From Spirochaetales bacterium (lineage in GTDB: Bacteria > Spirochaetota > Spirochaetia > Treponematales > UBA12059), in the NCBI GenBank assembly GCA_016938515.1, contig JAFGUM010000221.1, forward strand, positions 1-10,598: 10,598 nucleotides of DNA. Reading direction: 5' to 3'. The first letter of the stretch is position 1, and each line of letters starts with the position of its first letter. Below the pieces are notes generated by a model, which was given only the letters and a program-made list of their open reading frames with translations, was not told the DNA's origin and did not search any database. The position numbers were made by a program, and so were the translations under genes. Positions 1 through 10,598 of this stretch are shown here, piece by piece.

Positions 1-1421
1 GGCACTCGGGTCTCAACTTCTATCTTCTGCGCGTGGCGAACCTTGTCCAGAAGAATGTTGAGGTGTAGTTCACCCATGCCTGCTATGACGGTCTCCTTCG
101 TCTCGGCGTCAAAGCGGATGGTAAAAGTCTTGTCTTCTTCGGAAGCCTTGTGCAGAAGTTCAGACAGCTTGTCCTCTTCCTTTTTGGAGACGGCGCTTAT
201 GGCTACAGCGTGGACGGGTTGAGGCAGACTCAATGGTTTGAAGCTCAGCGGCAATTCTGGCGCGGTAATGCTCTCGTTTGTCTTGAGAGACGGGCTCTTG
301 ACGAGGATACCTATGTCGCCAGCTACCAGTTTGTCTACCTCTTCCAGCTTCTTGCCGGTCGCGGAGAACAGCTTCCCGGCCTTTTCTTTCTTGTTCTCGG
401 CAACGTTGAGGTATTCCGTATCCTGGGACAACACGCCGCGAACTACCTTGACGTATGAAAGCTTGCCTGAGAACTGGTCTATCTGCGTCTTGATGACGAG
501 TGCCGCGAGCGGCTTTTCAGCGTCTACTGTCAACTTGCTTTCTACGCCTTGCGCGTCTGTTACTTTCTCAGTGGACAGCTTGGCCGGATCGGGAGCGATG
601 CTTACCAGGAAGTCGAGCAAGGCCTGCGCGCCTGAATTTTTGGCAGAAGCCCCGGCGAATGCCGGAACGATGCGGTTGCCTACCAAAGCCTCCGACAGCC
701 CTCTAATCATCTCATCCTGGGATAATTCTCCTTCAGACAGGTATTTCTCCATCAACTCGTCGTCGCCGTCAGCAGCCGCCTCGAACAGCGCCGCGCGAGC
801 TTCGGCTACAGCGTCCGCGTACTCGGCGGGTACAGAAGCGGCAACCTCTTTCTGGTCATGCGCGCTCGGCACCGTGTATAGTTTCTGGTTGATAACGTCT
901 ATAACGCCCTTGAAACCGGCGCCTTCTCCAACGGGTATGGTAACGGCCACGGGGGCCAGCTTGAATTTCTCTTTGATGTCTGCAAGCGCACCCTGGAACG
1001 ATGCGCGGTCTTCGTCCATTTTGTTGACGAACACCATGCGCGGCTTCTCGCGATGATTCAGGTTGCGCCATATCTTTATAGTCTCGATCTGCACTCCCGA
1101 GCGGGCATCGATGAGTACGAGTGCCGACTCGCACGAGCGCAGAGCCAGGATCACGTCTCCTATAAAGTCGGAAGACCCCGGAGTGTCTATAAAATTGATC
1201 TTCGTCCCACCTACGCTGGCGTGGGCGAGGGCTGCATGCACGGAAATTTTGCGTTCGATTTCCTCTTCGGCGTAGTCGCTCACCGTCTTGCCGGACTCCA
1301 AGGTCTCGGGTTTCTGGATGGCTCCAGCGCAGAAGAGGAGATGTTCGAGCAAGCTGGTTTTACCCGTGCTACCATGGCCCGCAAGGGCCACGTTCCTGAT
1401 GAGGTCGGTCGTGTAAGCCAT
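1..1421 (-). CDS. fusA: Elongation factor G-like translational GTPase, partial (C-terminus beyond left edge)
   Basis: This is a ribosome-associated GTPase of the EF-G superfamily, represented here by its first 473 residues (full-length relatives have about 670-700). The G domain shows a P-loop GHGSTGKT (residues 15-22), a switch II DTPGSSDF (79-86) and NKMD (133-136). Domain II follows, then a domain III signature ending in GMGELHLNILLDK near the window edge. Domains IV and V are missing only because the window stops. Canonical EF-G has AHVDAGKT and DTPGHVDF; the altered motifs, including Ser where the catalytic switch II His normally sits, fit the EF-G2/EF-G-like paralogue group rather than the main translocase. 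Switch I is also altered (ERKISV where EF-G has ERGITI). The ATG at 1421 has AAGGAG seven bases upstream. A paralogue role in translation or ribosome recycling is inference. Confidence 0.93.
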   Translation of the reverse strand, partial: MAYTTDLIRNVALAGHGSTGKTSLLEHLLFCAGAIQKPETLESGKTVSDYAEEEIERKISVHAALAHASVGGTKINFIDTPGSSDFIGDVILALRSCESALVLIDARSGVQIETIKIWRNLNHREKPRMVFVNKMDEDRASFQGALADIKEKFKLAPVAVTIPVGEGAGFKGVIDVINQKLYTVPSAHDQKEVAASVPAEYADAVAEARAALFEAAADGDDELMEKYLSEGELSQDEMIRGLSEALVGNRIVPAFAGASAKNSGAQALLDFLVSIAPDPAKLSTEKVTDAQGVESKLTVDAEKPLAALVIKTQIDQFSGKLSYVKVVRGVLSQDTEYLNVAENKKEKAGKLFSATGKKLEEVDKLVAGDIGILVKSPSLKTNESITAPELPLSFKPLSLPQPVHAVAISAVSKKEEDKLSELLHKASEEDKTFTIRFDAETKETVIAGMGELHLNILLDKVRHAQKIEVETRV

Positions 1422-1522
1422 TAACACGCTCCTTGAGGAAGTTTGGGGGTCCGTCGCGCCGCCGCAAGGCGGGGCCGAGCCTCCTACGAAACAGCAGAAC
1501 CGTAACGTATCATTAGTGCGAA

Positions 1523-1551
1523 ATGATGGAACCGTTTTTGTCTGTTGTCAA
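1523..1551 (-). promoter_or_regulatory. Candidate sigma-70 promoter for the EF-G-like gene
   Basis: Read on the minus strand, a perfect TTGACA (1551-1546) is followed after 17 bases by CATCAT (1528-1523), a 4/6 match to TATAAT. This implies a 5' leader of roughly 90-100 bases before the EF-G-like ATG. The leader holds one small GC-rich hairpin (CCGCC/GGCGG, around 1456-1475). The -10 is weak, so this is a sequence-based guess. Confidence 0.45.
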
Positions 1552-1571
1552 GAAAAAGCGCTGAGCAGCGC
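1551..1571 (-). terminator. Short intrinsic terminator candidate, minus strand
   Basis: On the minus strand GCGCT-GCTC-AGCGC (1571-1558) forms a five-pair hairpin followed directly by TTTTTCT (1557-1551). It would end minus-strand transcripts coming from the two hypothetical genes to its right and crossing the tRNAs antisense. It abuts the TTGACA of the EF-G-like promoter. The stem is short, so termination may be inefficient. Confidence 0.35.
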
Positions 1572-1590
1572 CAAAAGAAATGTCGGCTCA

Positions 1591-1620
1591 TTGACAAACG
1601 GCGGAGGCACGGCATATACA
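1591..1620 (+). promoter_or_regulatory. Strong sigma-70-like promoter for the tRNA pair
   Basis: TTGACA (1591-1596, perfect) is separated by 18 bases from TATACA (1615-1620); an overlapping TACAAT lies at 1617-1622. Transcription would start around 1627-1630, just before the first base of tRNA-Pro at 1632. A near-consensus promoter with almost no leader is typical of stable RNA genes. Confidence 0.7.
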
Positions 1621-1631
1621 ATAGACCTCTG

Positions 1632-1704
1632 CGGGACGTAGCCTAGCGGCTAAGGCGCCAGCTTTGGGAGCTGGATATCGGGGGTTCGAATCCCCCCGTC
1701 CCGA
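1632..1704 (+). tRNA. tRNA-Pro, anticodon TGG
   Basis: A full cloverleaf can be drawn. The acceptor CGGGACG (1632-1638) pairs with CGTCCCG (1697-1703), and the discriminator is A1704. The D arm is GCCT/AGGC. The anticodon stem CCAGC/GCTGG holds loop TTTGGGA with anticodon TGG at 1665-1667, which reads CCA and other CCN proline codons. The T arm is GGGGG-TTCGAAT-CCCCC. The CCA tail is not encoded, so it must be added by a nucleotidyltransferase. It is co-transcribed with tRNA-Arg nine bases downstream. Confidence 0.97.
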
Positions 1705-1713
1705 TGAATACGC

Positions 1714-1787
1714 GGGATCATAGCTCAACTGGATAGAGCAGCTGCCTTCTAAGCAGCAGGTCGGGCGTTCGAGTCGCCCTGGTCCCA
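1714..1787 (+). tRNA. tRNA-Arg, anticodon TCT
   Basis: The acceptor GGGATCA (1714-1720) pairs with TGGTCCC (1780-1786) with one G-T pair, and the discriminator is A1787. The D arm is GCTC/GAGC. The anticodon stem GCTGC/GCAGC holds loop CTTCTAA with anticodon TCT at 1748-1750, which reads AGA/AGG arginine codons. The T arm is GGGCG-TTCGAGT-CGCCC. CCA is not encoded. It shares the upstream promoter with tRNA-Pro and is followed by a terminator-like hairpin. Confidence 0.97.
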
Positions 1788-1798
1788 TGGAGCTATGC

Positions 1799-1833
1799 GA
1801 GCCAGGTCAACTGGTAAACGGCCTGGTTCTTTT
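1799..1833 (+). terminator. Candidate intrinsic terminator of the tRNA transcript
   Basis: GAGCCAGG (1799-1806) pairs with CCTGGTTC (1822-1829), eight pairs including one G-T, with a 15-base loop, followed by TTTT (1830-1833). It begins 11 bases after the tRNA-Arg discriminator base, as expected for tRNA terminators. The T tract is short. It overlaps the last codons of the convergent gene at 1807-2448. Confidence 0.5.
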
Positions 1834-2448
1834 CGTCAGCCGCCTGAGCCCGAAAAAAAGCGCCCCGGCGCAGTACAGCAGCGACACAATCAAACCCGCC
1901 CACTCCATCCGCATAAAATACATCGACAGCCCCAGAGCCGCCACAAGAAACGCAGCCGCTATGATCGCGACGTGCTTGAAAGCGCCGGGTAATCCATCCT
2001 TGGCTGCTTCCTCGACGGCAACGGGAAAGACGATAGCACTGGAAGCCAGCAGCACCGGTACGAGCAGCGCGTATACCCTCCCCGGCTGTCCCCACGTGAT
2101 AACAGTAGTGGCAATGCAGAAAACCGACATCGATCCCGCGGTAAAAGCCACGAGACGCTCGTAATCACTTCCACGCTCCAGGCCATGGAAGCCAACCGCC
2201 AGCGAAAACGCCGCGGCAGTCAGGCCAAACGGCAGCAACCAGTAGCGGAGATACAGCGAAAGGACGACGAACGGAGACCCCCAGAAGGGTTGGGAAAGAG
2301 GCAAGGCCAGCAACCATAGAATGGTGCCTGGAATGCCGAACAGAAGACCACGCGCGAACGCGCGCCATACGGTCTCAGCGCCTTTGCGAGACCAGGCGAT
2401 GGCGGTGAAAAAAGACAAGGGCATTGATACGAGGGCAAAGAGGTACAT
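1807..2448 (-). CDS. Polytopic membrane protein of unknown function
   Basis: I do not recognise a family. The 213-residue product is very hydrophobic, with about seven likely membrane-spanning stretches separated by short charged loops (for example SRKGAETVWR after the first segment and EEAAKDG before the sixth) and a basic C-terminal tail RRLTKRTRPFTS. No catalytic motif or metal-binding pattern is visible. The ATG at 2448 is chosen; a GTG two codons upstream (2454) is equally open and neither has a clear Shine-Dalgarno sequence. It lies 67 bases downstream of the small helical protein gene on the same strand and is probably co-transcribed with it. Its 3' end converges on the tRNA pair. A real gene seems likely because of the long hydrophobic frame and helix-loop pattern. 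Confidence 0.65.
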   Translation of the reverse strand: MYLFALVSMPLSFFTAIAWSRKGAETVWRAFARGLLFGIPGTILWLLALPLSQPFWGSPFVVLSLYLRYWLLPFGLTAAAFSLAVGFHGLERGSDYERLVAFTAGSMSVFCIATTVITWGQPGRVYALLVPVLLASSAIVFPVAVEEAAKDGLPGAFKHVAIIAAAFLVAALGLSMYFMRMEWAGLIVSLLYCAGALFFGLRRLTKRTRPFTS

Positions 2449-2515
2449 GCTCACAAGGCTATCACGAGCAGGTTAGCTCGACAAGTGTTCGCGCGTCAGG
2501 CTAAACCACCACGGT

Positions 2516-2917
2516 TCAGAACAACGCGAGCAGATCGAGGTGATCCGTAGCCCAACTCGCGAATTTGCGGCACCCGTCGGCCATGGCATGCACTCGTTGA
2601 CGAGGATCCTCATCGGGGATAGACGCGGAGTACTGCTCAAGGGCCGCGGCAAAGGCGGTTTCGTGCTCCTGTATGGCCCTTAGAATGGCTTCCGGATCTG
2701 CCGCAGCCTTCAGGGCAACCCGTGGAGGCGTCCCGGAATACCAAGCCTCCAGCGCACCCAATTCGTGCAAGTGCTCGCTTTTCTGCCGCAGAATGGAGTC
2801 AAGAACCTTGCGAATGGCAGGCGACTGTACTGTCTTGCCCGAATCGCGGTACGCTGCGATTGCCTCACCACACGCGCGTGACAGCGATACGGCGGCATCT
2901 CCAACGTTTTCGTTCAT
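2516..2917 (-). CDS. Small all-helical hypothetical protein, possibly ferritin-like
   Basis: The 133-residue product is predicted to be almost entirely alpha-helical, with four helices of roughly 25 residues. It is rich in Ala, Glu and His. It has E48xxH51 in the second helix, an EHE cluster at residues 84-86 in the third, and D125-H126 in the last. Paired Glu/His helices recall rubrerythrin or ferritin-like di-metal bundles, but the classical two ExxH pattern is not complete, so this is only a possibility. No signal peptide or membrane segment is seen. The ATG at 2917 has no Shine-Dalgarno sequence; a good promoter lies so close upstream that the mRNA may be leaderless. It is divergent from infC and likely heads a two-gene unit with the membrane protein gene. 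Confidence 0.65.
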   Translation of the reverse strand: MNENVGDAAVSLSRACGEAIAAYRDSGKTVQSPAIRKVLDSILRQKSEHLHELGALEAWYSGTPPRVALKAAADPEAILRAIQEHETAFAAALEQYSASIPDEDPRQRVHAMADGCRKFASWATDHLDLLALF

Positions 2918-2923
2918 AAAGCA

Positions 2924-2952
2924 ACGATACTACCACTGCAGGAAGCTGTCAA
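2924..2952 (-). promoter_or_regulatory. Promoter for the helical protein gene; leaderless start likely
   Basis: On the minus strand TTGACA (2952-2947, perfect) is followed after exactly 17 bases by TATCGT (2929-2924). The expected start of transcription, about seven bases after the -10, falls on or next to the ATG at 2917. That would give an mRNA with essentially no 5' leader, matching the lack of a ribosome binding site. Confidence 0.55.
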
Positions 2953-2978
2953 ATGCCGTTTCAGCATCGTCTGACCCT

Positions 2979-3008
2979 TTGACGCGCTCGTATCCTCTAT
3001 GCTAGACT
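2979..3008 (+). promoter_or_regulatory. Promoter for the infC-rpmI-rplT operon
   Basis: TTGACG (2979-2984) is separated by 18 bases from TAGACT (3003-3008), which is preceded by TGC, an extended -10 element. Transcription would begin near 3014-3016, leaving a leader of only about 38 bases before infC. That is too short for the long L20-type leader found upstream of infC in Firmicutes. It lies back-to-back with the divergent promoter at 2924-2952. Confidence 0.5.
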
Positions 3009-3052
3009 CCAACGCACCATAGAAATTTGCAGGGTAAGCCGAAGGAGGTCCA

Positions 3053-3631
3053 TTGGCGGACAACAAGAACCTGCGGACCAATGAACAGATCAGGGTCCGT
3101 GAAGTGCGATTGATCGACGATGCGGGGGAGCAAAAGGGCGTACTGCCCACGGCGGAGGCCCTGCGCATGGCCAAGGACATTGGCCTGGACCTGGTTGAGA
3201 TCGCGCCGCAATCAAATCCGCCGGTCTGCAAGATCCTTGACTACGGAAAGTTCAAATTCGAGCAGGAAAAAAAGCTCAAGGACAACCGGAAGCACCAGAA
3301 GATCGTAAAGATCAAAGAAGTCCGGATGCAGCCCAAGATCGATGATCACGATCTGGATTTCAAGTCCAAACACGTTCGCGGGTTCCTTCAGGAAGGTAAC
3401 AAGGTCAAAGTTACCATACGCTTCAGAGGCCGTGAACTGGCTCATACCGAGATAGGCGAGGAAGTTCTCAGGAGCGTCCTCACCAAGATAGAGGGATTGT
3501 ACGTCATGGAGAGCCCCCCGAGGATGGAAGGCCGCTTCATGTCGATGATGCTTATACCAAAGGCGCCGGTCATCAAAAAACCGGAGCCCGCGCGGCCAGC
3601 TTCGGAACCCGCGCCAGAGACTACCGCGTGA
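3053..3631 (+). CDS. infC: Translation initiation factor IF-3
   Basis: IF-3 binds the 30S subunit, prevents premature 50S joining and monitors start-codon and initiator-tRNA selection. The 192-residue product has the N-terminal domain (about 1-75, with [20 protein letters not shown] and LDLVEIAP), a lysine-rich linker, and the C-terminal domain (about 85-170, with [15 protein letters not shown]). A Pro/Glu-rich tail of about 20 residues extends past the usual end of roughly 175-180. Translation starts at a TTG (3053) preceded by AAGGAGGT (3042-3049), a full anti-Shine-Dalgarno match, with short spacing. No other plausible start precedes the conserved N-terminus. Rare start codons are typical of infC (AUU in E. 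coli, used for autoregulation); TTG is a milder version. rpmI follows after 13 bases. Confidence 0.97.
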
Positions 3632-3644
3632 AGGATGGATTGAA

Positions 3645-3845
3645 ATGCCCAAGATGAAAACGAAGCGGTCGGCCGCAAAACGCTATACGCTTACCTCCAA
3701 TGGCAAGGTCAAGTACAAGAAAATGAACCTCCGCCATATCCTTACAAAAAAGTCATCCAAGCGCAAACGCAAGCTCCGCAAGGCTGGATTCGTTGCCGCG
3801 GGTCCTGTATACCAGATAAAGAAGAAGCTGCTCCCGTACGGTTGA
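3645..3845 (+). CDS. rpmI: 50S ribosomal protein L35
   Basis: This is a component of the large ribosomal subunit. The 66-residue, strongly basic product begins [14 protein letters not shown] and carries the L35 hallmark of an early KTKRSAAKR block followed by [16 protein letters not shown]. Its length is standard for the family. The start at 3645 has AAGGA (3631-3635) nine bases upstream, overlapping the infC stop codon, so it is probably translationally linked to infC. It sits in the classic infC-rpmI-rplT order. The following intergenic region is unusually long and structured. Confidence 0.97.
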
Positions 3846-3846
3846 G

Positions 3847-3966
3847 CACTATGGCCCTGAGCCCCGACAGGGCCTTAGTGACTGCGTCCGGGACTACAGG
3901 CGAGTGTATCGCACCGCCGGATACCAACGAGCCGATCAAGGGGGCCACGGCAACCTGAATCGGCTC
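3847..3966 (+). promoter_or_regulatory. Structured RNA element between rpmI and rplT, candidate autoregulatory site
   Basis: Three hairpins fill this gap. The first is CACTA/TAGTG (3847-3851 with 3876-3880), one T-T mismatch, then GGCCCTG/CAGGGCC (3853-3859 with 3868-3874), with loop AGCCCCGA. The second is GTATC/GATAC (3906-3910 with 3920-3924). The third is a perfect eight-pair GAGCCGAT/ATCGGCTC (3929-3936 with 3959-3966) with a 22-base loop. Loop one (GCCCC, 3861-3865) is complementary to GGGGC (3941-3945) in loop three, so a kissing or pseudoknot contact is possible. The rplT ribosome binding site (TTAAGGAGA, 3981-3989) follows. L20 represses its own operon through structured mRNA in several bacteria; that this element is an L20 target is inference. 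No U-tract follows either long hairpin, so simple termination is unlikely. Confidence 0.6.
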
Positions 3967-3995
3967 TGTTCCCAGTTACGTTAAGGAGACAGAAC

Positions 3996-4370
3996 ATGCC
4001 CAGAGCAGTAGACGGCACCAGGCGAAAGGATCATCGCAAAAAGATCCTCAAGCTTGCCAAGGGATATTACGGACGAAGGTCCACCAATCACAAGACCGCC
4101 AAAGACGCCGTAGCCAAGGCGCTCATGTACGCGTACCGCGATCGTCGCGACAGAAAGCCGACCTTCCGCGCCCTCTGGATCACGCGTATCAACGCGGCGT
4201 GCAGGGCAGAAGGAATAACCTACAGCCGCTTTATCGCGGGTGCGGCCCAGGCCAATATGACCATGGATCGAAAGGTACTCGCCGACATAGCCGTCCGCGA
4301 TCCTGCCGCCTTCAAGGCCATCGTCGAGCGGGTAAAGTCAGTAGCGCAGCCAGCCGCGGCGCAGGCATAG
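3996..4370 (+). CDS. rplT: 50S ribosomal protein L20
   Basis: L20 is an early assembly protein of the large subunit that binds 23S rRNA; in several bacteria it also represses its own operon. The 124-residue product has a long basic N-terminal extension ([16 protein letters not shown], then [10 protein letters not shown]) and the conserved [21 protein letters not shown] segment, followed by the globular C-terminal domain with YSRFIAG and NRKVLAD-like DRKVLADIA. An Ala-rich tail makes it slightly longer than the usual 118 or so residues. The start at 3996 has TTAAGGAGA seven bases upstream. The downstream coiled-coil gene begins three bases after the stop, so translation of the cell-division genes is probably tied to L20 expression. 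Confidence 0.97.
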
Positions 4371-4373
4371 TCG

Positions 4374-4769
4374 ATGATAAGCCTCGAGCAAGTTCGTGCC
4401 CTTGAGGCGCGGGTGGAAAAAGCTGTAGCTCTTATCGGCTCGCTCCGATCGGAAAACGCTTCGTTGCGTACCGGGCTACAGGCAGCAGAGATGCGCGTCG
4501 CCGAGCTCGAAGGCCTCATCCAGGATTTTCAGAAAGACCAGGCGCGAATCGAGGAAGGCATCATCGAAGCGCTGCGCAAGCTCGACTCGTTTGAGGATTC
4601 CGTGCACCTGGCCGTTGCCAACGGCAAATCCGCTGAGCAGCCGTTAGCTGAGCAGCCCATGGCTGAGCAGCCGTTAGCTGAGCAGCCAACGGCTGAACTT
4701 ACAGAAGATCAGCCCGAGGAAGAGGCTCCCCAGGCAACCGACAGCACGGATTCTCTAGACATATTTTAG
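4374..4769 (+). CDS. ZapB-like coiled-coil protein with AEQP repeats
   Basis: The 131-residue product is a parallel or antiparallel coiled coil over about residues 4-75, with leucines, isoleucines and alanines at heptad spacing (LEQVRALEARVEKAVALI, then LQAAEMRVAELEGLI). This is followed by an acidic, proline-containing, probably disordered tail. The tail contains four direct AEQPx pentapeptides (residues 87-106) and ends in DSTDSLDIF. The overall design, and its place one base upstream of zapA, suggest a ZapB-type partner in Z-ring assembly, but coiled-coil similarity is weak evidence and no signature motif exists. The ATG at 4374 lacks a strong Shine-Dalgarno sequence and lies three bases after the rplT stop, which implies translational coupling. 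No signal peptide or membrane segment is present. Confidence 0.75.
   Translation: MISLEQVRALEARVEKAVALIGSLRSENASLRTGLQAAEMRVAELEGLIQDFQKDQARIEEGIIEALRKLDSFEDSVHLAVANGKSAEQPLAEQPMAEQPLAEQPTAELTEDQPEEEAPQATDSTDSLDIF
4632..4691 (+). repeat. Four in-frame 15-bp tandem repeats
   Basis: Units start at 4632, 4647, 4662 and 4677. The constant part is GCTGAGCAGCC and the last four bases vary (GTTA, CATG, GTTA, AACG). Units one and three are identical. Each encodes A-E-Q-P plus L, M, L or T. A fifth partial unit (GCTGAACTT) follows. Because the unit is a multiple of three, copy-number change would lengthen or shorten the tail without a frameshift. Confidence 0.9.
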
Positions 4770-4770
4770 G

Positions 4771-5124
4771 ATGTCAGTAGAAATCGTGCGCGTCGAGTTG
4801 CTCGGCACCTCGTTTTCAATCCAGACCGACGAGAGCAAGGAATACGTCGAGTCGCTGATCGCCTACCTGGGGTCTAAAGTCGAGACGGTAAAGTCGTCGT
4901 CTAAAATAGACGATCCACTCAAAGCCGCGATCCTGGCCGGGATATTTCTGGTCGATGAGTTATACAGGGAACGGGTAGACGCGTCGGCGACGACGGCTAC
5001 CACGACACCGGATGAAGATATGGGCGCGCTGGCTGAACGGCTGATAGCCCGTATCGACGAATCGCTGAACGATGACATACGGCGAGAACATCAATCGCCG
5101 TCCCATATCGGAGGGGAACCATGA
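4771..5124 (+). CDS. zapA: Cell division protein ZapA
   Basis: ZapA binds and bundles FtsZ protofilaments at the division site. The 117-residue product has the ZapA N-terminal beta-strand pattern (VRVELLGTSFSIQTDESKEY), then a helix with YVESLIAYLGSKVETVK and the conserved segment DPLKAAILAGIFLVDELYRER that leads into the dimerising coiled coil. A low-complexity Thr/Ala stretch (DASATTATTTPDEDM) interrupts the coil before a last helix. The ATG follows the stop of the upstream coiled-coil gene by a single base and has no Shine-Dalgarno sequence, so expression depends on reinitiation. Its stop overlaps the next start as ATGA. The pairing with a coiled-coil gene supports a ZapA-ZapB-like complex. 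Confidence 0.88.
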   Translation: MSVEIVRVELLGTSFSIQTDESKEYVESLIAYLGSKVETVKSSSKIDDPLKAAILAGIFLVDELYRERVDASATTATTTPDEDMGALAERLIARIDESLNDDIRREHQSPSHIGGEP

Positions 5125-5309
5125 GTATGCCGCTGGAAGACTTGTTCGAATACGACGGGAATGCCTACGAATTCACCGTCGCCGTCAATCGTCGTTCGTA
5201 CCAGCTCGCCGTCCTTAAGACCCCCGAGGTTGAAAAAAACAACGGCAAGGTCGTTTCACTCGCCATGAAGCAGATTTTCAGCACCCAAATTGAGTACCGC
5301 TTCGAATAA
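5121..5309 (+). CDS. rpoZ: DNA-directed RNA polymerase omega subunit, divergent
   Basis: Omega helps fold and assemble the beta-prime subunit of RNA polymerase. The 62-residue product matches the short omega pattern: PLEDLFEYDGNAYEFTVAVNRRSYQLA corresponds in order to the usual V-x-N-R-F-E-L-x(5-7)-A-x-R-A-R-Q-L region, and NNGKVVSLAMKQI corresponds to the conserved K-P-x-V-x-A-L-R-E-I. Several normally basic or small residues differ, so the assignment is by pattern rather than strong identity. The ATG at 5121 overlaps the zapA stop (ATGA) and has GGAGG (5110-5114) six bases upstream; a second in-frame ATG at 5127 is possible. Its last 20 bases overlap the miaA start. Confidence 0.75.
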   Translation: MSMPLEDLFEYDGNAYEFTVAVNRRSYQLAVLKTPEVEKNNGKVVSLAMKQIFSTQIEYRFE

Positions 5310-6222
5310 AGTACTCGTACTGTTTGGCCCAACTGCCGTTGGCAAGACGGCGACCATCGAGAGGCTCGCGAGCGACGACCGGCTGCATGGCATGCCGGTC
5401 GTCGTCGTTTCTTGTGATTCGCAGCAAGTGTACAAAGGCCTCGATATAGGCACCGCAAAACCAGGCGCGGCTGAACGCGCCAGGATACCCCACCGGCTTA
5501 TCGACATTGCCTATCCAGATGAATCATTCTCGGTGGGACGTTTCGTGGAGCTCGCGGACAAGGCGTGCGCGGATGCCTTGGCCGCGGGAGCCTTGCCCAT
5601 CCTTTCCGGCGGCACGGCGTACTACATACGGGCTTTTCTGTACGGCCCGCCACCGGCGCCACCGGCTGATCCAGTAGTACGAGCCATGCTGCGGGCAGAG
5701 CTTGCGACCAGAGGCGCGGATGCGTTGCGCAGGGAACTGGCGGAGGTAGATCCGGCGAGCGCAGCCAGGATTAGCCCCGCAGACCTGTACCGCACAACTC
5801 GGGCGCTGGAAGTGTACCGATGCTCCGGTAAGCCACTCTCTTCGTTCGCGCCGCCTACCCTTCCACGCGCGCGCTGGAATACGCTCACCCTGGGGCTCGA
5901 CAGACCGCGGGCGGAGCTGTATGCCCGCGTAGAGGCACGCGTAGACGCCATGATGGCCGCCGGCCTTGAAGCTGAGGTTGCCGCGCTCAGGGCTGCTGGA
6001 TACGGTCCCGAATCTCCGGGAATGAAGGCCATAGGTTACGCGGAGTTTTGCAACGGTGGCGAACTAACCACCATCGTCGATGCTATCAAGCTGCATACGC
6101 GCCGCTACGCCAAGCGACAGCTCACGTTCATGCGGAGCTTGCCGGGAGTACGGTGGTTCAACGCGGACGACTACGTTGGCGTCGTCGATACCATAACGGG
6201 CTGGCTGCTAGAAACCGCGTAG
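5290..6222 (+). CDS. miaA: tRNA dimethylallyltransferase
   Basis: MiaA transfers the dimethylallyl group of DMAPP to N6 of A37 in tRNAs that read codons beginning with U, the first step toward ms2i6A. The 310-residue length is normal. Visible motifs are the P-loop GPTAVGKT (13-20), DSQQVYKGLDIGTAKP (43-58), IPHRLID (66-72), the substrate-tunnel segment GGTAYYIRA (107-115), and the C-terminal MKAIGYAEF and TRRYAKRQLTFMR. Gln replaces the common Met in DSMQVY and Tyr replaces the common Leu in GGTGLY; neither removes a catalytic group. Translation appears to start at TTG 5290, inside the end of the omega gene, with no strong ribosome binding site. The 3' end overlaps the convergent nrdG by 15 bases. 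Confidence 0.95.
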   Translation: MSTASNKVLVLFGPTAVGKTATIERLASDDRLHGMPVVVVSCDSQQVYKGLDIGTAKPGAAERARIPHRLIDIAYPDESFSVGRFVELADKACADALAAGALPILSGGTAYYIRAFLYGPPPAPPADPVVRAMLRAELATRGADALRRELAEVDPASAARISPADLYRTTRALEVYRCSGKPLSSFAPPTLPRARWNTLTLGLDRPRAELYARVEARVDAMMAAGLEAEVAALRAAGYGPESPGMKAIGYAEFCNGGELTTIVDAIKLHTRRYAKRQLTFMRSLPGVRWFNADDYVGVVDTITGWLLETA

Positions 6223-6909
6223 CCGGGCTTTTGGAGCGGCCTTCTGTATCGTCGCCAGGAATAACGCCAGCTTCTCGTCAGGGTATGGTGATACCGTAGA
6301 CGCCCAGGCCTGATCGAGCACGCGGCCTTCCCTGTAACGCTGCAGAAATACGTTGTCTTCTGGCCGTAGCAACGATGCTATGACGTCTATGGATTCCGCG
6401 TTGATAAACCCAGGCGTACACGTAATCCTGAATTCGTATCCTTCGCTCGTGCCACGCACAGCATCCATGCTGCTAACGATTCGCTCGGCGGCATCCACCG
6501 GTGCATCCGGCCACAGTTCGGAGTAGCGGTCGGGAGACGTTTTAAGGTCCATCGCTACGTACTGGGCGCCAACGGGTTGTATCCTCCCGGGAAACGACCC
6601 GTTGGTGTCCATTTTTACGGCATACCCCAGGTTGCGGATAGAAGCGGCCAGAGCCGGCAGGTCTTCGTGCAGGGTTGGTTCGCCACCGGAAATGGCTACG
6701 CCCGAAATCTTGCCCACGCGGCTGGCAAGAAACTTCAGGGCTGCTTCCTCAGTAATGAAGCCGTTATCCGCGGGCGAACCCGGTGGCGATACGACCAGGT
6801 CCGGGTTCTGGCAGTACGGGCAGCGAAAGTTGCAACCGACGGTAAAGAGAACCGCGGCAACACGTCCCGGAAAGTCAACGAGACTGGTTTTTTGCAGGCC
6901 GAGCAACAC
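6208..6909 (-). CDS. nrdG: Anaerobic ribonucleotide reductase activating protein, radical SAM
   Basis: NrdG uses a [4Fe-4S] cluster and S-adenosylmethionine to install the glycyl radical on the class III reductase. The 233-residue product has the cluster motif CNFRCPYC (C26, C30, C33), preceded by TSLVDFPGR, and the SAM-binding SGGEP (74-78). The length and the N-terminal KTSLVDFPG fit the longer NrdG subgroup often annotated with a two-domain radical SAM fold. Translation most likely starts at GTG 6909, ten bases after the stop of the gene encoding the radical-loop/redoxin protein. Its substrate here would be Gly34 of that separate protein rather than the NrdD chain itself, which is an unusual situation. 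It is last in the nrdR-nrdD operon and converges on miaA. Confidence 0.95.
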   Translation of the reverse strand: MLLGLQKTSLVDFPGRVAAVLFTVGCNFRCPYCQNPDLVVSPPGSPADNGFITEEAALKFLASRVGKISGVAISGGEPTLHEDLPALAASIRNLGYAVKMDTNGSFPGRIQPVGAQYVAMDLKTSPDRYSELWPDAPVDAAERIVSSMDAVRGTSEGYEFRITCTPGFINAESIDVIASLLRPEDNVFLQRYREGRVLDQAWASTVSPYPDEKLALFLATIQKAAPKARLRGF

Positions 6910-6919
6910 GGTATCAGCG

Positions 6920-7405
6920 CTACGCGGTAATGGCTTGCGGCAGGTTACTGGCTACGGGTTCAAAGATTTGAACCAGGATGTCGCGGCTGCGCGCCCTCGT
7001 CACCTCATCACCCGCGGCATTGAGTAGCACGGCCGTTGGCGTCGACAACACCTCGTACTGCCTGGCGAGGTCGAGCCCATCCTCAGTGTCTACGTCTACG
7101 ACTATACCCGGCAGCTCACTGCGCATAAGGTAGTCACGGACCACGGGGCAATTGGGACAGGCCTCCCGAGTAAACACCAGGTATGACGCTATTCCAGTTC
7201 TGGGTTCTGGCGCCGCCTCGGACGCGGATGGAAACGAAAACTCGACGCGCTTGCCAAACTCCTCGCGCTTGCCGGCGTTCCAGTTGCGCACCGAGCGGTA
7301 GTATCCTACGATGCGGCTATAGACCTCTGTCGGCGTCCCCTCCACCGTCATCAGCCTGGACTTGAGCTCTGCGAGTCTCGCTTCCTTCTGTTCTTTCGTC
7401 TCCAT
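6920..7405 (-). CDS. Detached NrdD glycyl-radical domain fused to a thioredoxin-like domain
   Basis: The 161-residue product has three parts. Residues 1-22 form a charged helix. Residues 26-56 carry TEVYSRIVGYYRSVRNWN and NAGKREEFGKRVEF, which line up with the C-terminal tail of ordinary NrdD (E. coli RVCGYLG...FNAGKQEEVKRRV, where Gly681 is the radical site); the equivalent is Gly34 (7306-7304). Residues 72-155 form a redoxin fold: strand YLVFT, active site CPNC (83-86), strand IVVDVDTED, then STPTAVLL with the likely cis-Pro123. The ATG at 7405 has GGAGG (7416-7412) six bases upstream, and an in-frame TAA at 7426-7424 shows it is independently translated. It lies between nrdD and nrdG. I infer that it is the radical-bearing subunit of a split reductase and may also supply electrons; function is not proven. 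Confidence 0.85.
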   Translation of the reverse strand: METKEQKEARLAELKSRLMTVEGTPTEVYSRIVGYYRSVRNWNAGKREEFGKRVEFSFPSASEAAPEPRTGIASYLVFTREACPNCPVVRDYLMRSELPGIVVDVDTEDGLDLARQYEVLSTPTAVLLNAAGDEVTRARSRDILVQIFEPVASNLPQAITA

Positions 7406-7489
7406 TGCACCCCTCCAACCACTTTAGCTGTTATATATGCTCGCCGCGCCTTCGTACGATGACGAAAACCGCGGAGATGCGGCCCCCTG

Positions 7490-9577
7490 TCAGGACGGAC
7501 CGATCAGTTCCTGTTCCAATACGGCTATCTCTGCCCTCAGCCGGGCTTCCTTCTCTGCCTTGCACTTGGGGCACGAGAAGTGCTCGCCGGAAATGTACCC
7601 GTGGATGGGGCACACCGAAAACGTTGGTGAAATCGTGTAGTATGGTATGCGGTAGCGCGCGGCTATCGTCTGTACGAGATCCCGCAGCGCGCGCCAGTCG
7701 TCAACGGCTTCTCCCAGAAAAACGTGGAACACGGTGCCACCGGTGTATTTGGACTGCAACGCCTCCTGGTGATCAAGAGCGTCGAACAGATCCTGCGTAA
7801 AGTCGGCTGGCAACTGGGTTGAGTTTGTATAGTAAGGCTCGTCGCTGCCAGAGGCAAGAATTTCGGGGTAGCGCTTGCGGTCGTGTTTGGCCAGCCGGTA
7901 CGAGGTGCTCTCTGCGGGCGTCGCCTCCAGGTTGAAAAGCTCGCCCGTATCTTCCTGGTAATCCTGCAGACGCTTCCGCATGTGTTCGAGCACTTCTTCG
8001 GCAAAGGCCTTTCCTTCGGCGTCCGCGATGGTCTTGCCCATATAATTCTGGCAGCACTCGTTCATGCCCACGAGACCTATCGTAGAAAAGTGACTGTTGA
8101 AGCTTTTAAGATACCGCTTCGTGTACGGGAACAACCCTCCATCAAGAAGCCGACTGCAGACCTTGCGCTTGATAGTGAGGCTCTGCGCCGCCAGATCCAT
8201 AAGCCGGTCCAGCCTGCGGTAGAAATCGCTTCTGCTCTCCGCGAGGTACCCGATGCGCGGCATGTTGAGCGTCACGACGCCGATGGAGCCAGTGAGCTCG
8301 TCTGAGCCAAACAGCCCACCGCCACGTTTTCTGAGCTCACGTTTGTCGAGCTGAAGCCTGCAGCACATGGAGCGTACGTCACCAGGATCGAGATCGGAGT
8401 TTACAAAATTCTGGAAGTATGGCGTGCCGTACTTGGCTGTCATCTCGAACAGCAGCCTGGCGTTGTCCGACTCCCAGTCGAAGTCGCGCGTTATGTTGTA
8501 CGTGGGAATGGGATACTGAAAGCCCCTGCCGTCGGCGTCTCCACCGAGCATAAGCTCTATGAACACGCGGTTGATAACGTCCATCTCGGCCTGGCAGTCG
8601 CCATAGCTAAAATTCTGCTCAACGCCGCCTACGACCGCGGGTCTGTCCCGCAGGTCGTCCGGGCAGACCCAGTCGAGCGTAATATTGGTAAACGGTGCCT
8701 GGCTTCCCCAGCGGCTCGGCGTGTTGACGCCGAACAGGAAACTCTGCACGCACTGTTTGACTTCCTCGTCGTTCATGTCGTCTACCTTGACGAACGGCGC
8801 CAGGTACGTGTCAAAGCTGGAAAACGCCTGCGCTCCGGCCCACTCGTTTTGCAGGATGCCGAGGAAGTTGACCATCTGCTGCACGAGCGTATTGAGGTGC
8901 TTTGCCGGAGCGCTCGTTATCTTGTCAGGCACACCACCGAGGCCCTCAGCTATGAGCTGCCGCAGCGACCACCCGGCGCAGTAGCCCGAGAACATGGACA
9001 AATCATGAATATGGAAATCTGCTTCCCGGTGTGCCTCGGCTATCTCTTCTGGATAGATGTTTTTTAGCCAGTAGTTGGCTGTTACCGTGCCGGAATTGTG
9101 CAGTACGAGCCCACCCAGCGAATAGTTGACGTTGGCGTTTTCCTTGACTCGCCAGTCTACCTGAGCCAGGTACCCGTCCATAGTCGTGTTTATATCGACC
9201 ATCAAGCGTTGCGCGTCCCGGACCGCCTCGCGCTTCGCCCGGTACAGGATGTAGGCGCGGGCTACCTGGGCTTCGCGCGCTTCTATGAGCGCCGTCTCTA
9301 CGAGATCCTGAATTTCCTCTATGGCGGGGATGGAGTTTGGATGCCGCCCGGCTAGAAGGAGAGCCAGCCGTGATTCGACGTCAGCGGCGATGCGCTTTAC
9401 CTTGTCGTGATCGGCTACTCCCTGCACCGCCGTAAAGGCTTTTTCGATAGCGGTTTCGATGCGGGAACGGTCGTACCGTTCTATACTACCCGAACGCTTG
9501 GCTACAAAACGACGAACCTGATCGCCTTCACCCAAAAAACCACGCCATTCAGGAAATATCTGCTGAGCGCCGGCCAT
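7490..9577 (-). CDS. nrdD: Anaerobic (class III) ribonucleoside-triphosphate reductase, lacking the glycyl-radical loop
   Basis: NrdD reduces ribonucleotides to deoxyribonucleotides without oxygen. Numbering from the ATG at 9577 gives 695 residues. There is an N-terminal ATP-cone (about 21-113, RRFVAKRSGSIERYDRSRI) for allosteric control, then the ten-stranded barrel with DFHIHDLSMFSGYCAGWSL, MCCRL (404-408, the likely thiyl-radical finger loop) and HFSTIGLVGMNE (496-507). The C-terminal metal site is CPIH (C656, H659) and CPKC (C669, C672). The usual RxxGY radical loop should follow, but the protein ends after a 23-residue helix; that loop is on the next gene. The ATG has GAGGAG five bases upstream and lies two bases after the nrdR stop; GTG 9583 is less likely. 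The barrel shows no other lesion. Confidence 0.95.
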   Translation of the reverse strand: MAGAQQIFPEWRGFLGEGDQVRRFVAKRSGSIERYDRSRIETAIEKAFTAVQGVADHDKVKRIAADVESRLALLLAGRHPNSIPAIEEIQDLVETALIEAREAQVARAYILYRAKREAVRDAQRLMVDINTTMDGYLAQVDWRVKENANVNYSLGGLVLHNSGTVTANYWLKNIYPEEIAEAHREADFHIHDLSMFSGYCAGWSLRQLIAEGLGGVPDKITSAPAKHLNTLVQQMVNFLGILQNEWAGAQAFSSFDTYLAPFVKVDDMNDEEVKQCVQSFLFGVNTPSRWGSQAPFTNITLDWVCPDDLRDRPAVVGGVEQNFSYGDCQAEMDVINRVFIELMLGGDADGRGFQYPIPTYNITRDFDWESDNARLLFEMTAKYGTPYFQNFVNSDLDPGDVRSMCCRLQLDKRELRKRGGGLFGSDELTGSIGVVTLNMPRIGYLAESRSDFYRRLDRLMDLAAQSLTIKRKVCSRLLDGGLFPYTKRYLKSFNSHFSTIGLVGMNECCQNYMGKTIADAEGKAFAEEVLEHMRKRLQDYQEDTGELFNLEATPAESTSYRLAKHDRKRYPEILASGSDEPYYTNSTQLPADFTQDLFDALDHQEALQSKYTGGTVFHVFLGEAVDDWRALRDLVQTIAARYRIPYYTISPTFSVCPIHGYISGEHFSCPKCKAEKEARLRAEIAVLEQELIGPS

Positions 9578-9579
9578 GA

Positions 9580-10050
9580 TCACTCCTCTTCGCGGGCGTT
9601 CTCGAGTCGCCCAATCTCGAGCATAAACTCGTCCATCGACTCGAACTGCCGGTAGACGCTCGCGAACCGTATGTACGCAACCTTGTCCAGGTCGTATAAT
9701 TTGTGCAGGGTCATTTCTCCCAGAGACGAGCTGGGAACCTCGTTGCCGCCCTTGCCGAGCATGGCGGCGTCGTCCTCAATATCGTTGAGTATGTTTTCTA
9801 TGGTCATCTGGGAGACGGGGCGCTTTTCGAGAGCTCGCTGCAACCCCCTTTCAAGCTTTTGCCTGTCGAAGGGTTCGCGGCGGCCATCGCGCTTTATGAC
9901 CATCAGGGGTTTTTCCTCGATGCGCTCGTAGCTGGTGAACCTGAAACCACACGACAGGCACTCGCGACGCCTGCGTATGCTCTCCCCGTTGGCCAGGGTG
10001 CGCGAGTCTGTAACGCGGTCGTCCAGGGAACCGCAATGCGGGCATCTCAC
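9580..10050 (-). CDS. nrdR: Transcriptional repressor NrdR
   Basis: NrdR senses ATP/dATP and represses ribonucleotide reductase genes. The 156-residue product has the N-terminal zinc ribbon CPHC (C3, C6) and CLSC (C31, C34) with the intervening RVTDSRTLANGESIRRRRE, followed by an ATP-cone (about 49-139, PLMVIKRDGRREPFDRQKL). Length is standard. Translation starts at GTG 10050, with GGAGG (10065-10061) ten bases upstream. It is the first gene of the operon with nrdD, the radical-loop/redoxin gene and nrdG, and two NrdR-box-like sites sit just upstream, so it probably represses itself together with the reductase it controls. Confidence 0.96.
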   Translation of the reverse strand: MRCPHCGSLDDRVTDSRTLANGESIRRRRECLSCGFRFTSYERIEEKPLMVIKRDGRREPFDRQKLERGLQRALEKRPVSQMTIENILNDIEDDAAMLGKGGNEVPSSSLGEMTLHKLYDLDKVAYIRFASVYRQFESMDEFMLEIGRLENAREEE

Positions 10051-10085
10051 TTTATTACTTCCTCCAGGCCATCATACCGTCAAAC

Positions 10086-10101
10086 ATACTATCAATTGTA
10101 T
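10086..10101 (-). promoter_or_regulatory. NrdR box 2 (proximal)
   Basis: ATACTATCAATTGTAT matches 11 of 16 positions of the ACACTATATATAGTGT form of the NrdR box (consensus acaCwAtATaTwGtgt), differing mainly in the centre. It begins 36 bases upstream of the nrdR GTG and lies exactly 31 bases from the second box. Confidence 0.65.
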
Positions 10102-10115
10102 CACCATCACTACAA
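10086..10115 (-). promoter_or_regulatory. Candidate promoter of the nrdR-nrdD operon, overlapped by the NrdR boxes
   Basis: On the minus strand TTGTAG (10115-10110) is followed after 18 bases by TAGTAT (10091-10086), each a 4/6 match to consensus. The -35 falls between the two NrdR boxes and the -10 lies inside the proximal box, a geometry suited to repression. The hexamers are weak, and TACAAT nearby is an alternative -10. Confidence 0.35.
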
Positions 10116-10116
10116 A

Positions 10117-10132
10117 CATCTATATATAGTGG
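10117..10132 (-). promoter_or_regulatory. NrdR box 1 (distal)
   Basis: CATCTATATATAGTGG contains CTATATATAGTG, a perfect match to the twelve-base core CwAtATaTwGtg of the NrdR box. NrdR sites occur in pairs separated by about 15-16 bases, and the gap between this site and the other is 15 bases (31 bp start to start). Confidence 0.75.
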
Positions 10133-10248
10133 CCCTTCGCTCTATTGTCAATATCAAAATTCACGACTGCAGCATTCTCTGCGCATTGATTTTTATCGAC
10201 GATAGGGCGATTGTATAGTAGCTTCCATAACTAAGGGGAGGATACCAC

Positions 10249-10590
10249 ATGACATTTTCAGAGCGGATGAAAGACATCGTAGACAAAGGCATCAAGACTT
10301 CCAAGGAAGTCGTGAAGCAAGCGGGCGACAAGGCGCAGCAGTGGGGTGAGATGGGTGTTCTGAAGCTGGAGATTGTGCAGCTCAGGAACCAGGCTGAAAA
10401 GCTGACTGCTCGTCTCGGCGCGGAAGTTTTCGAGGTTCTCGTCGAGAAGGGTCAGAAAACGGTAGGCAAGGAATCTCCAGCCGTCAAGGAAACCATAGAC
10501 CGGATTGAGGAGATAGAAGCCCTTATCAAGTCTAAGGAAGACACATTCAGGAAATCTGGCGGCAAGGAAGAAGATCTCCGAGACCAGTAG
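10249..10590 (+). CDS. Small amphipathic helical protein of unknown function
   Basis: I do not recognise a named family. The 113-residue product is nearly all charged amphipathic helix. An N-terminal MTFSERMKDIVDKGIKTSKE segment is followed by a coiled-coil-like stretch (VLKLEIVQLRNQAEKLTARLG, about residues 37-57), a short break at KGQKTVGKESPA, and a second helix (IDRIEEIEALIKSKEDTFRK) with a polar tail. There are no cysteines, no signal peptide and no membrane segment, so a cytoplasmic oligomer is likely. The ATG at 10249 has GGGGAGG (10235-10241) seven bases upstream, a good ribosome binding site. It is transcribed away from nrdR; TATAGT (10214-10219) could be a -10 but no convincing -35 accompanies it. 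The gene ends eight bases before the window edge. Confidence 0.8.
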   Translation: MTFSERMKDIVDKGIKTSKEVVKQAGDKAQQWGEMGVLKLEIVQLRNQAEKLTARLGAEVFEVLVEKGQKTVGKESPAVKETIDRIEEIEALIKSKEDTFRKSGGKEEDLRDQ

Positions 10591-10598
10591 CCGACAGA

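Follow-up and report, generated by a model that had tools for sequence, protein, structure and literature searches.

Separate parts of glycyl-radical enzymes have been described for pyruvate formate-lyase, for which GrcA/YfiD and the T4 protein Y06I serve as spare parts; in the accessible excerpt of a 2021 paper (PMC8683613), only YfiD and Y06I count as validated, and others may exist. Ribonucleotide reductases made of two chains are known from class II (NrdJa/NrdJb; PMC9669993, in excerpt), and phage nrdD genes in pieces have been reported, mostly as interruptions by mobile introns or inteins (PMC3653736, in excerpt). Here we analysed a class III ribonucleotide reductase, the oxygen-sensitive enzyme that supplies DNA precursors under anaerobic conditions, of a Spirochaetales bacterium (UBA12059) whose glycyl-radical domain is encoded by a gene of its own. 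It lies in a stretch of 10,598 nucleotides (the window; assembly GCA_016938515.1, contig JAFGUM010000221.1, positions 1 to 10,598), in which nrdR (9580-10050), nrdD (7490-9583), a gene for a 161-residue protein (6920-7405) and nrdG (6208-6909) follow one another on the minus strand, to which all coordinates below refer. Like the NrdD structures of T. maritima, P. copri, T4 and S. thermophilus, this enzyme has the barrel, the ATP-cone, the zinc motif, the finger-loop cysteines and an NrdG partner, and its radical loop is alike in sequence and predicted position. In contrast to them, the loop is carried by another polypeptide together with a redoxin, and new helices are present at both ends. The two chains recall NrdJa/NrdJb, but the class and the split point differ and NrdJ has no glycyl radical; and whereas the phage genes are mostly broken by mobile elements, the break here coincides with a boundary between domains and is conserved across the phylum. 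Our searches of the open-access literature brought up no description of an NrdD divided from its radical domain. Databases already carry such small proteins under reductase names, for example in Treponema pedis, and as far as the open-access literature shows they are annotated yet unexplained. Because of the split itself, its conservation, the co-occurrence of the two parts, natural fusions between them, genomes in which no other reductase was found and the predicted fit of the loop, we consider it very likely, judging from sequences and structural models, that this is a two-piece class III ribonucleotide reductase which receives its radical, and probably its reductant, from a detachable subunit.

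The nrdD gene starts with a GTG at 9583 (an ATG at 9577 was the start used in the original prediction made on this DNA). PF13597 (NRDD) matches its product from position 1 to 532 of 562 (590 bits), PF03477 (ATP-cone) with 70 bits and NF006126 with 1079 bits. The protein ends with SVCPIHGYISGEHFSCPKCKAEKEARLRAEIAVLEQELIGPS followed by a stop, and inspection of the frame revealed no RxxGY motif C-terminal of the zinc site. The missing piece is found in the adjoining gene, whose 161-residue product matches PF13597 from 532 to 562 (32.5 bits against a curated cut-off of 26.2, E 5e-8); three NCBIfam NrdD models match it over only their last ~30 positions, below their whole-protein cut-offs. The zinc site and the radical loop lie on either side of the split point. 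Among the hallmarks of class III, the barrel profile, the ATP-cone, the finger-loop cysteine motif and the zinc-site motif are all present in NrdD, and the radical-SAM activase NrdG adjoins as a separate gene scoring above the TIGR02495 cut-off; the radical glycine alone is not on the same polypeptide, since NrdD stops at 532 and Gly34 lies in the adjoining gene. The original prediction had described a tail-less nrdD frame and a small gene carrying the missing tail with a CPNC thioredoxin-like domain, and both points stand; an nrdG gene does adjoin the pair.

In the small protein, Gly34 (7304-7306) lies within the glycyl-radical domain, defined by the PF13597 match and the alignment as TEVYSRIVGYYRSVRNWNAGKREEF with its flanks (7238-7333), and shares its alignment column with the radical-loop glycine of full-length relatives, as had been anticipated. 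Among 28 aligned small proteins, TEVYSRIVGYYR, Gly34, Cys83 and Cys86 do not vary at all; conservation is highest in the radical loop, and the linker and the redoxin are variable. The thioredoxin/glutaredoxin-like domain (6986-7189) combines similarity of our profile A1 to redoxins in the PDB (best E 6e-11) with the CPNC motif of Cys83 and Cys86 (7148-7159), a CxxC kept in 84/84 loci of the window's type (type A, below). Single-sequence Pfam scores for this domain fall under cut-off. Among the matches listed (60 of 80), profile A1 found only redoxin-type chains in the PDB and no NrdD tails. One could suppose that the small protein chiefly serves other targets as a redoxin, with the radical-like segment acting only as a docking tag, and the invariant CxxC would agree with this; but it is the radical loop that is most conserved, and versions without any redoxin exist, so that we regard this explanation as highly improbable.

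The arrangement is not restricted to the window. A protein search with the small protein returned 1047 proteins at E<=0.001, its own sequence included (120 listed). When named genomes were scanned, 383 relatives were found; the best 80 are all spirochaetes by name, including Breznakiella homolactica, Gracilinema caldarium and Treponema lecithinolyticum. As the best of the 383 matches to the small protein, these 80 loci are a sample biased towards it. NrdD ends at the same place and the small gene comes next on the same strand in 77 of them and in the window; in the other three, the contig starts shortly upstream of the small gene. The two genes of the window share a frame, with two stops between them. 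Over the 78 loci, the three possible frame relations occur 20, 32 and 26 times, that is, in frame in 20 and out of frame in 58 (in one of the 78, L065, the redoxin lies in another frame). Programmed read-through was rejected on these counts, the genes being out of frame in 58/78 loci. Four genomes (G005, G012, G022, G053) have two frames with a stop between, not one frame.

Our sample of the phylum had 159 genomes including that of the window, 87 of which have an NRDD match; from the matches listed, a large NRDD match could be classified in 84. By profile end, 69 of these have a match ending at 525-539, 22 a match ending at or beyond 554, and seven have both. Two of the 69 (G074, G082) carry the radical domain inside the NrdD frame after a short insert, which leaves 67/84 genomes tail-less. 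G070 was counted as full, yet a stop separates its NrdD from the radical domain. We then defined a 71-genome set, consisting of 68 genomes classed as tail-less by profile end (including G074, G082 and the atypical G197) together with G070, with its stop in frame, and G164 and G184, with fragments. A radical-domain profile built from 14 sequences matched 71/71 of them, in a frame of its own in 69 and inside the NrdD frame in G074 and G082. Among the 39 genomes without a tail-less NrdD, 11 matched the profile, with 11/12 hits inside NrdD frames. A separate radical domain thus accompanies 69/69 genomes with a tail-less, fragmentary or stop-interrupted NrdD and 1/41 others (Fisher 2.5e-29). The sole domain outside an NrdD frame in the latter group lies in G124 (contig C388:7197-7286), whose NrdD match runs 16-560. 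The NrdD of G197 (L150) is distant from that of the window, with a match over 1-530 and no obvious RxxGY tail. Stand-alone radical domains are also named in Desulfuromonas, Desulfuromonadaceae/-ales and Candidatus Moranbacteria (P0255, P0270, P0273, P0297, P0307, P0312, P0340).

A free-living cell without any ribonucleotide reductase would be unexpected. In five of the 30 split-bearing near-complete genomes (G037, G167, G191, G121, G067; 96-99% complete), no match to a class I/II catalytic domain was found, and the sole large NRDD match among those listed is tail-less. The split enzyme looks like the only ribonucleotide reductase of these five genomes and, since cells need one, it is most likely functional there, as far as sequences can tell. 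A NrdG2-type match is present in 30/30 split-bearing genomes, over cut-off in 28. These results bear on whether the locus is a recent broken copy, a frameshift or an assembly artefact. The shared frame and the two stops of the window would fit such an accident, but the split is conserved over a phylum, the frame relations vary over the 78 loci, in five genomes no reductase other than the split enzyme was found, and extra helices have been added at both new ends; we consider an accident extremely improbable. A pseudogene or frameshift was accordingly rejected on the frame counts, the phylum-wide conservation and the five genomes without another reductase. The original prediction had named a complete NrdD in close relatives, or a second intact nrdD in the genome, as observations that would refute it. 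Neither turned up: seven genomes of the same genus, one without any NrdD and one with a fragment only, yielded no complete NrdD, and the host genome (G000; 2.55 Mb, 605 contigs, 79% complete) yielded no third NRDD match besides nrdD and the small gene. With 77/80 of the best named loci and 67/84 classifiable genomes sharing it, the split proved real and conserved.

No window protein matched the GrcA/PFL glycine-radical family in Pfam or NCBIfam at E<=1, and the small protein differs from GrcA/YfiD by its attached redoxin. GrcA/YfiD repairs an enzyme that has its own tail, whereas the window NrdD has none and no tailed NrdD was found in the 79%-complete genome; the piece should therefore be obligatory, not spare.

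We propose the following mechanism. NrdD would provide the catalytic barrel, the allosteric cone and the double-cysteine finger loop, and the glycyl-radical loop of the small protein would enter the barrel as a normal C-terminus would. In the predicted fold, modelled as a read-through chain of NrdD and the small protein with full-length relatives in the alignment, Gly34 falls at, or no more than two residues from, the radical glycines of known NrdD structures, where the original prediction expected the loop to sit. The small protein would probably be held by helices, one added at each new end: a C-terminal NrdD helix past the zinc site (7502-7570; predicted local distance difference test, pLDDT, of 95-96 for the block, falling to 64 at the end) and an N-terminal helix of the small protein (7349-7396; block pLDDT 92-94, with a conserved start). 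The helices are extra, because the full-length relatives L007 and L010 run directly from CPxCGAE into TEVYSR and have no counterpart of them; across 84 type A NrdDs, the chain continues for a median of 26 residues beyond the last CxxC. The two added helices may pair with each other. NrdG, judging from adjacency and homology, would place the radical on Gly34, from which it would move to a finger-loop cysteine for reduction of the ribonucleotide. The attached redoxin, which in five other genomes is fused directly to NrdD, would then re-reduce the active-site cysteines. With radical and reductant on a separate chain of ~18 kDa, a cleaved chain might, speculatively, be swapped without remaking NrdD.

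The residues expected for such chemistry are present. The finger-loop motif SMCCRL (Cys407-Cys408, the presumed thiyl/reductant cysteines; 8360-8365) is invariant in a 41-row alignment and kept in 81/84 type A NrdDs; the remaining three have an insert at that site. The zinc-site motif CPIH...CPKC (7562-7612), aligned with NrdDs in the PDB, is located at the C-terminal end of NrdD. In the excerpt of PMC4493059, the NrdD2 type is characterised by a third cysteine and a glutamate, some members having a methionine. Both the third cysteine and the glutamate are present here, the latter as Glu553 of NLEATPAES (7925-7927), which is invariant in our alignment; its position rests on alignment to T. maritima, and its role in thioredoxin-capable NrdDs is taken from the literature (PMC4493059, PMC9669993, both in excerpt).

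Two split designs were found. In type A, that of the window, NrdD ends with a CPxH...CPxC-like motif and a helix, and the partner consists of a helix, the radical loop, a linker and a redoxin. In type B, NrdD ends with CPVH...CPxxH (CPYEN in L163) and a short tail, and the partner adjoining nrdD is an open frame of 61-83 residues without a redoxin, orphan copies having 54-107 residues. A third layout occurs in the g12 group (G024, G027, G054), where the small gene adjoins nrdG and lies 95-527 kb from nrdD; its products (L112-L114) have about 95 residues, no redoxin and a CDCPP tail whose sequence resembles a remnant of the redoxin CPNCPP motif. In G067 the small gene is on another contig than nrdD and adjoins a radical-SAM gene which is not that genome's best NrdG match. 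One-frame fusions of NrdD, radical domain and redoxin occur in five genomes (L010, L147, L148, L151, L152). In G074 (L266) and G082 (L265), a single open frame comprises a type B tail, a stretch of 40-50 residues and the radical domain, representing either a fusion or a re-fusion that left a scar.

A tree of 87 NrdDs separates type A from type B and places the five fusions and the canonical L007 among type A. On a quick 54-row tree, obtained by dropping six long or odd rows and thinning the rest, split versus full requires at least five changes, and a single shared origin of the split was rejected (approximately unbiased test, p-AU 2.8e-41). The changes could be repeated splits or re-fusions, neither direction being favoured. 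Several observations weigh against the two-piece interpretation as we have drawn it. Fused and canonical forms are interspersed with split ones, so splitting is not required, and the design can do without the redoxin, which type B genomes and the g12 group lack. The fold model, built as one chain with full-length relatives, cannot serve as independent evidence that the two chains bind in trans, and in 6/13 alignments to NrdDs with a known radical glycine the end is 1-2 residues off a Gly-to-Gly match.

If the enzyme has two pieces, the chains may join once and stay together as a permanent heteromer, the split being neutral or a matter of stoichiometry and not of repair; this is compatible with a two-piece enzyme and an alternative only to exchange. 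The single copy, usually beside nrdD, in type A genomes of the 71-genome set and the interspersed fused and split forms speak for it. However, 15/71 genomes have at least two radical-domain matches (one of the three in G117 lies within a 969-residue NrdD frame), viral contigs carry the radical piece alone, and the gene is far from nrdD in the g12 genomes and on another contig in G067; we put a permanent heteromer at slightly under an even prospect. Alternatively, oxygen would cleave the chain at Gly34, the damaged chain would leave and a fresh one would be loaded, by analogy with YfiD/GrcA. The precedent of YfiD for pyruvate formate-lyase (PMC8683613, in excerpt) and the additional copies, chromosomal and prophage-like, of some genomes are in line with such a replaceable cartridge, but type A genomes of the set have no extra copy, and we offer it as a tentative and rather doubtful option. 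The orphan copies lie next to leuS, a malate/lactate dehydrogenase gene, radical-SAM genes or phage-type genes, the last comprising anti-restriction, RecE-like, replication initiator and helicase loader genes.

Relatives are encoded at 459 places on viral contigs. Among the best 80 loci, 66 have the domain standing alone and lack an NrdD, three have it separate with an NrdD nearby, and 11 have it inside an NrdD-like frame. For 46 of the 66, the whole contig was searched (43 plus L189, L197 and L210). The 51 whole contigs searched, from records listed as linear and often fragments, comprise these 43 (6.9-99.7 kb) and those of eight loci from a first scan, among them the three of L189, L197 and L210; in 51/51 the single NRDD match is the radical domain, one match lying under the family cut-off, and no NrdD was found. 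Stand-alone domains thus occur at L122, L123, L124, L127, L131, L132, L136 and L138 and among L185-L264. Head, tail-fibre, terminase, portal, helicase and primase genes are neighbours on four of the viral contigs. All 69 separate viral copies retain the patterns R..G[YF] and WN.[GA][KRQ], and one, L251, also has a redoxin. The copy of L127 closely resembles that of the type B spirochaete L175. These data would also agree with a broader picture, which we hold to be a little less than probable, in which class III radical domains are a mobile, exchangeable part: the spirochaete enzyme would be obligatorily two-piece, with the split gained or lost several times and extra domains kept in some genomes, and phages would widely carry the domain alone to re-arm or take over a tail-less (or oxygen-cleaved) host NrdD and secure DNA precursors.

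As for the surroundings, nrdR encodes the transcriptional regulator of ribonucleotide reductases (TIGR00244, 187 bits, cut-off 124.65) and nrdG a radical-SAM activase of the NrdG2 type (TIGR02495, 150.9 bits, cut-off 131.15); matches to them are present at 70/81 and 60/81 type A loci, respectively. A class I/II-type catalytic subunit is encoded elsewhere in the host genome, on contig C565 (1516-3660), with a profile match in two pieces in one frame. The three type A NrdDs with an interrupted finger loop (L095, L101, L104; frames of ~1018 residues) carry an intein-like insert of ~310 residues between the catalytic cysteines (SMC/CRL), beginning with Cys and ending in THN ahead of Cys; it had no Pfam match in L095 and L101. 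The phage NrdD L130 has a different intein-like insert.

In summary, the interpretation given in the original prediction is partly supported, and the present analysis extends it in that the split is phylum-wide and comes in two designs, the redoxin is optional, extra copies exist and viral contigs carry the piece alone. Here the radical store appears to have been parted from the catalytic body in nature, which would open docking, NrdG-dependent activation, transfer of the radical and repair of oxygen damage to study with two purified proteins, and the tie between a candidate reductant and the radical domain would give a genetic handle on the electron supply to redoxin-type class III reductases. 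The finding would extend the spare-part idea, which according to PMC8683613 (2021) is validated only for pyruvate formate-lyase, to an enzyme of DNA synthesis, and the stand-alone domains of viruses point to a very small auxiliary gene which may be among the factors that set the supply of anaerobic DNA precursors during infection.
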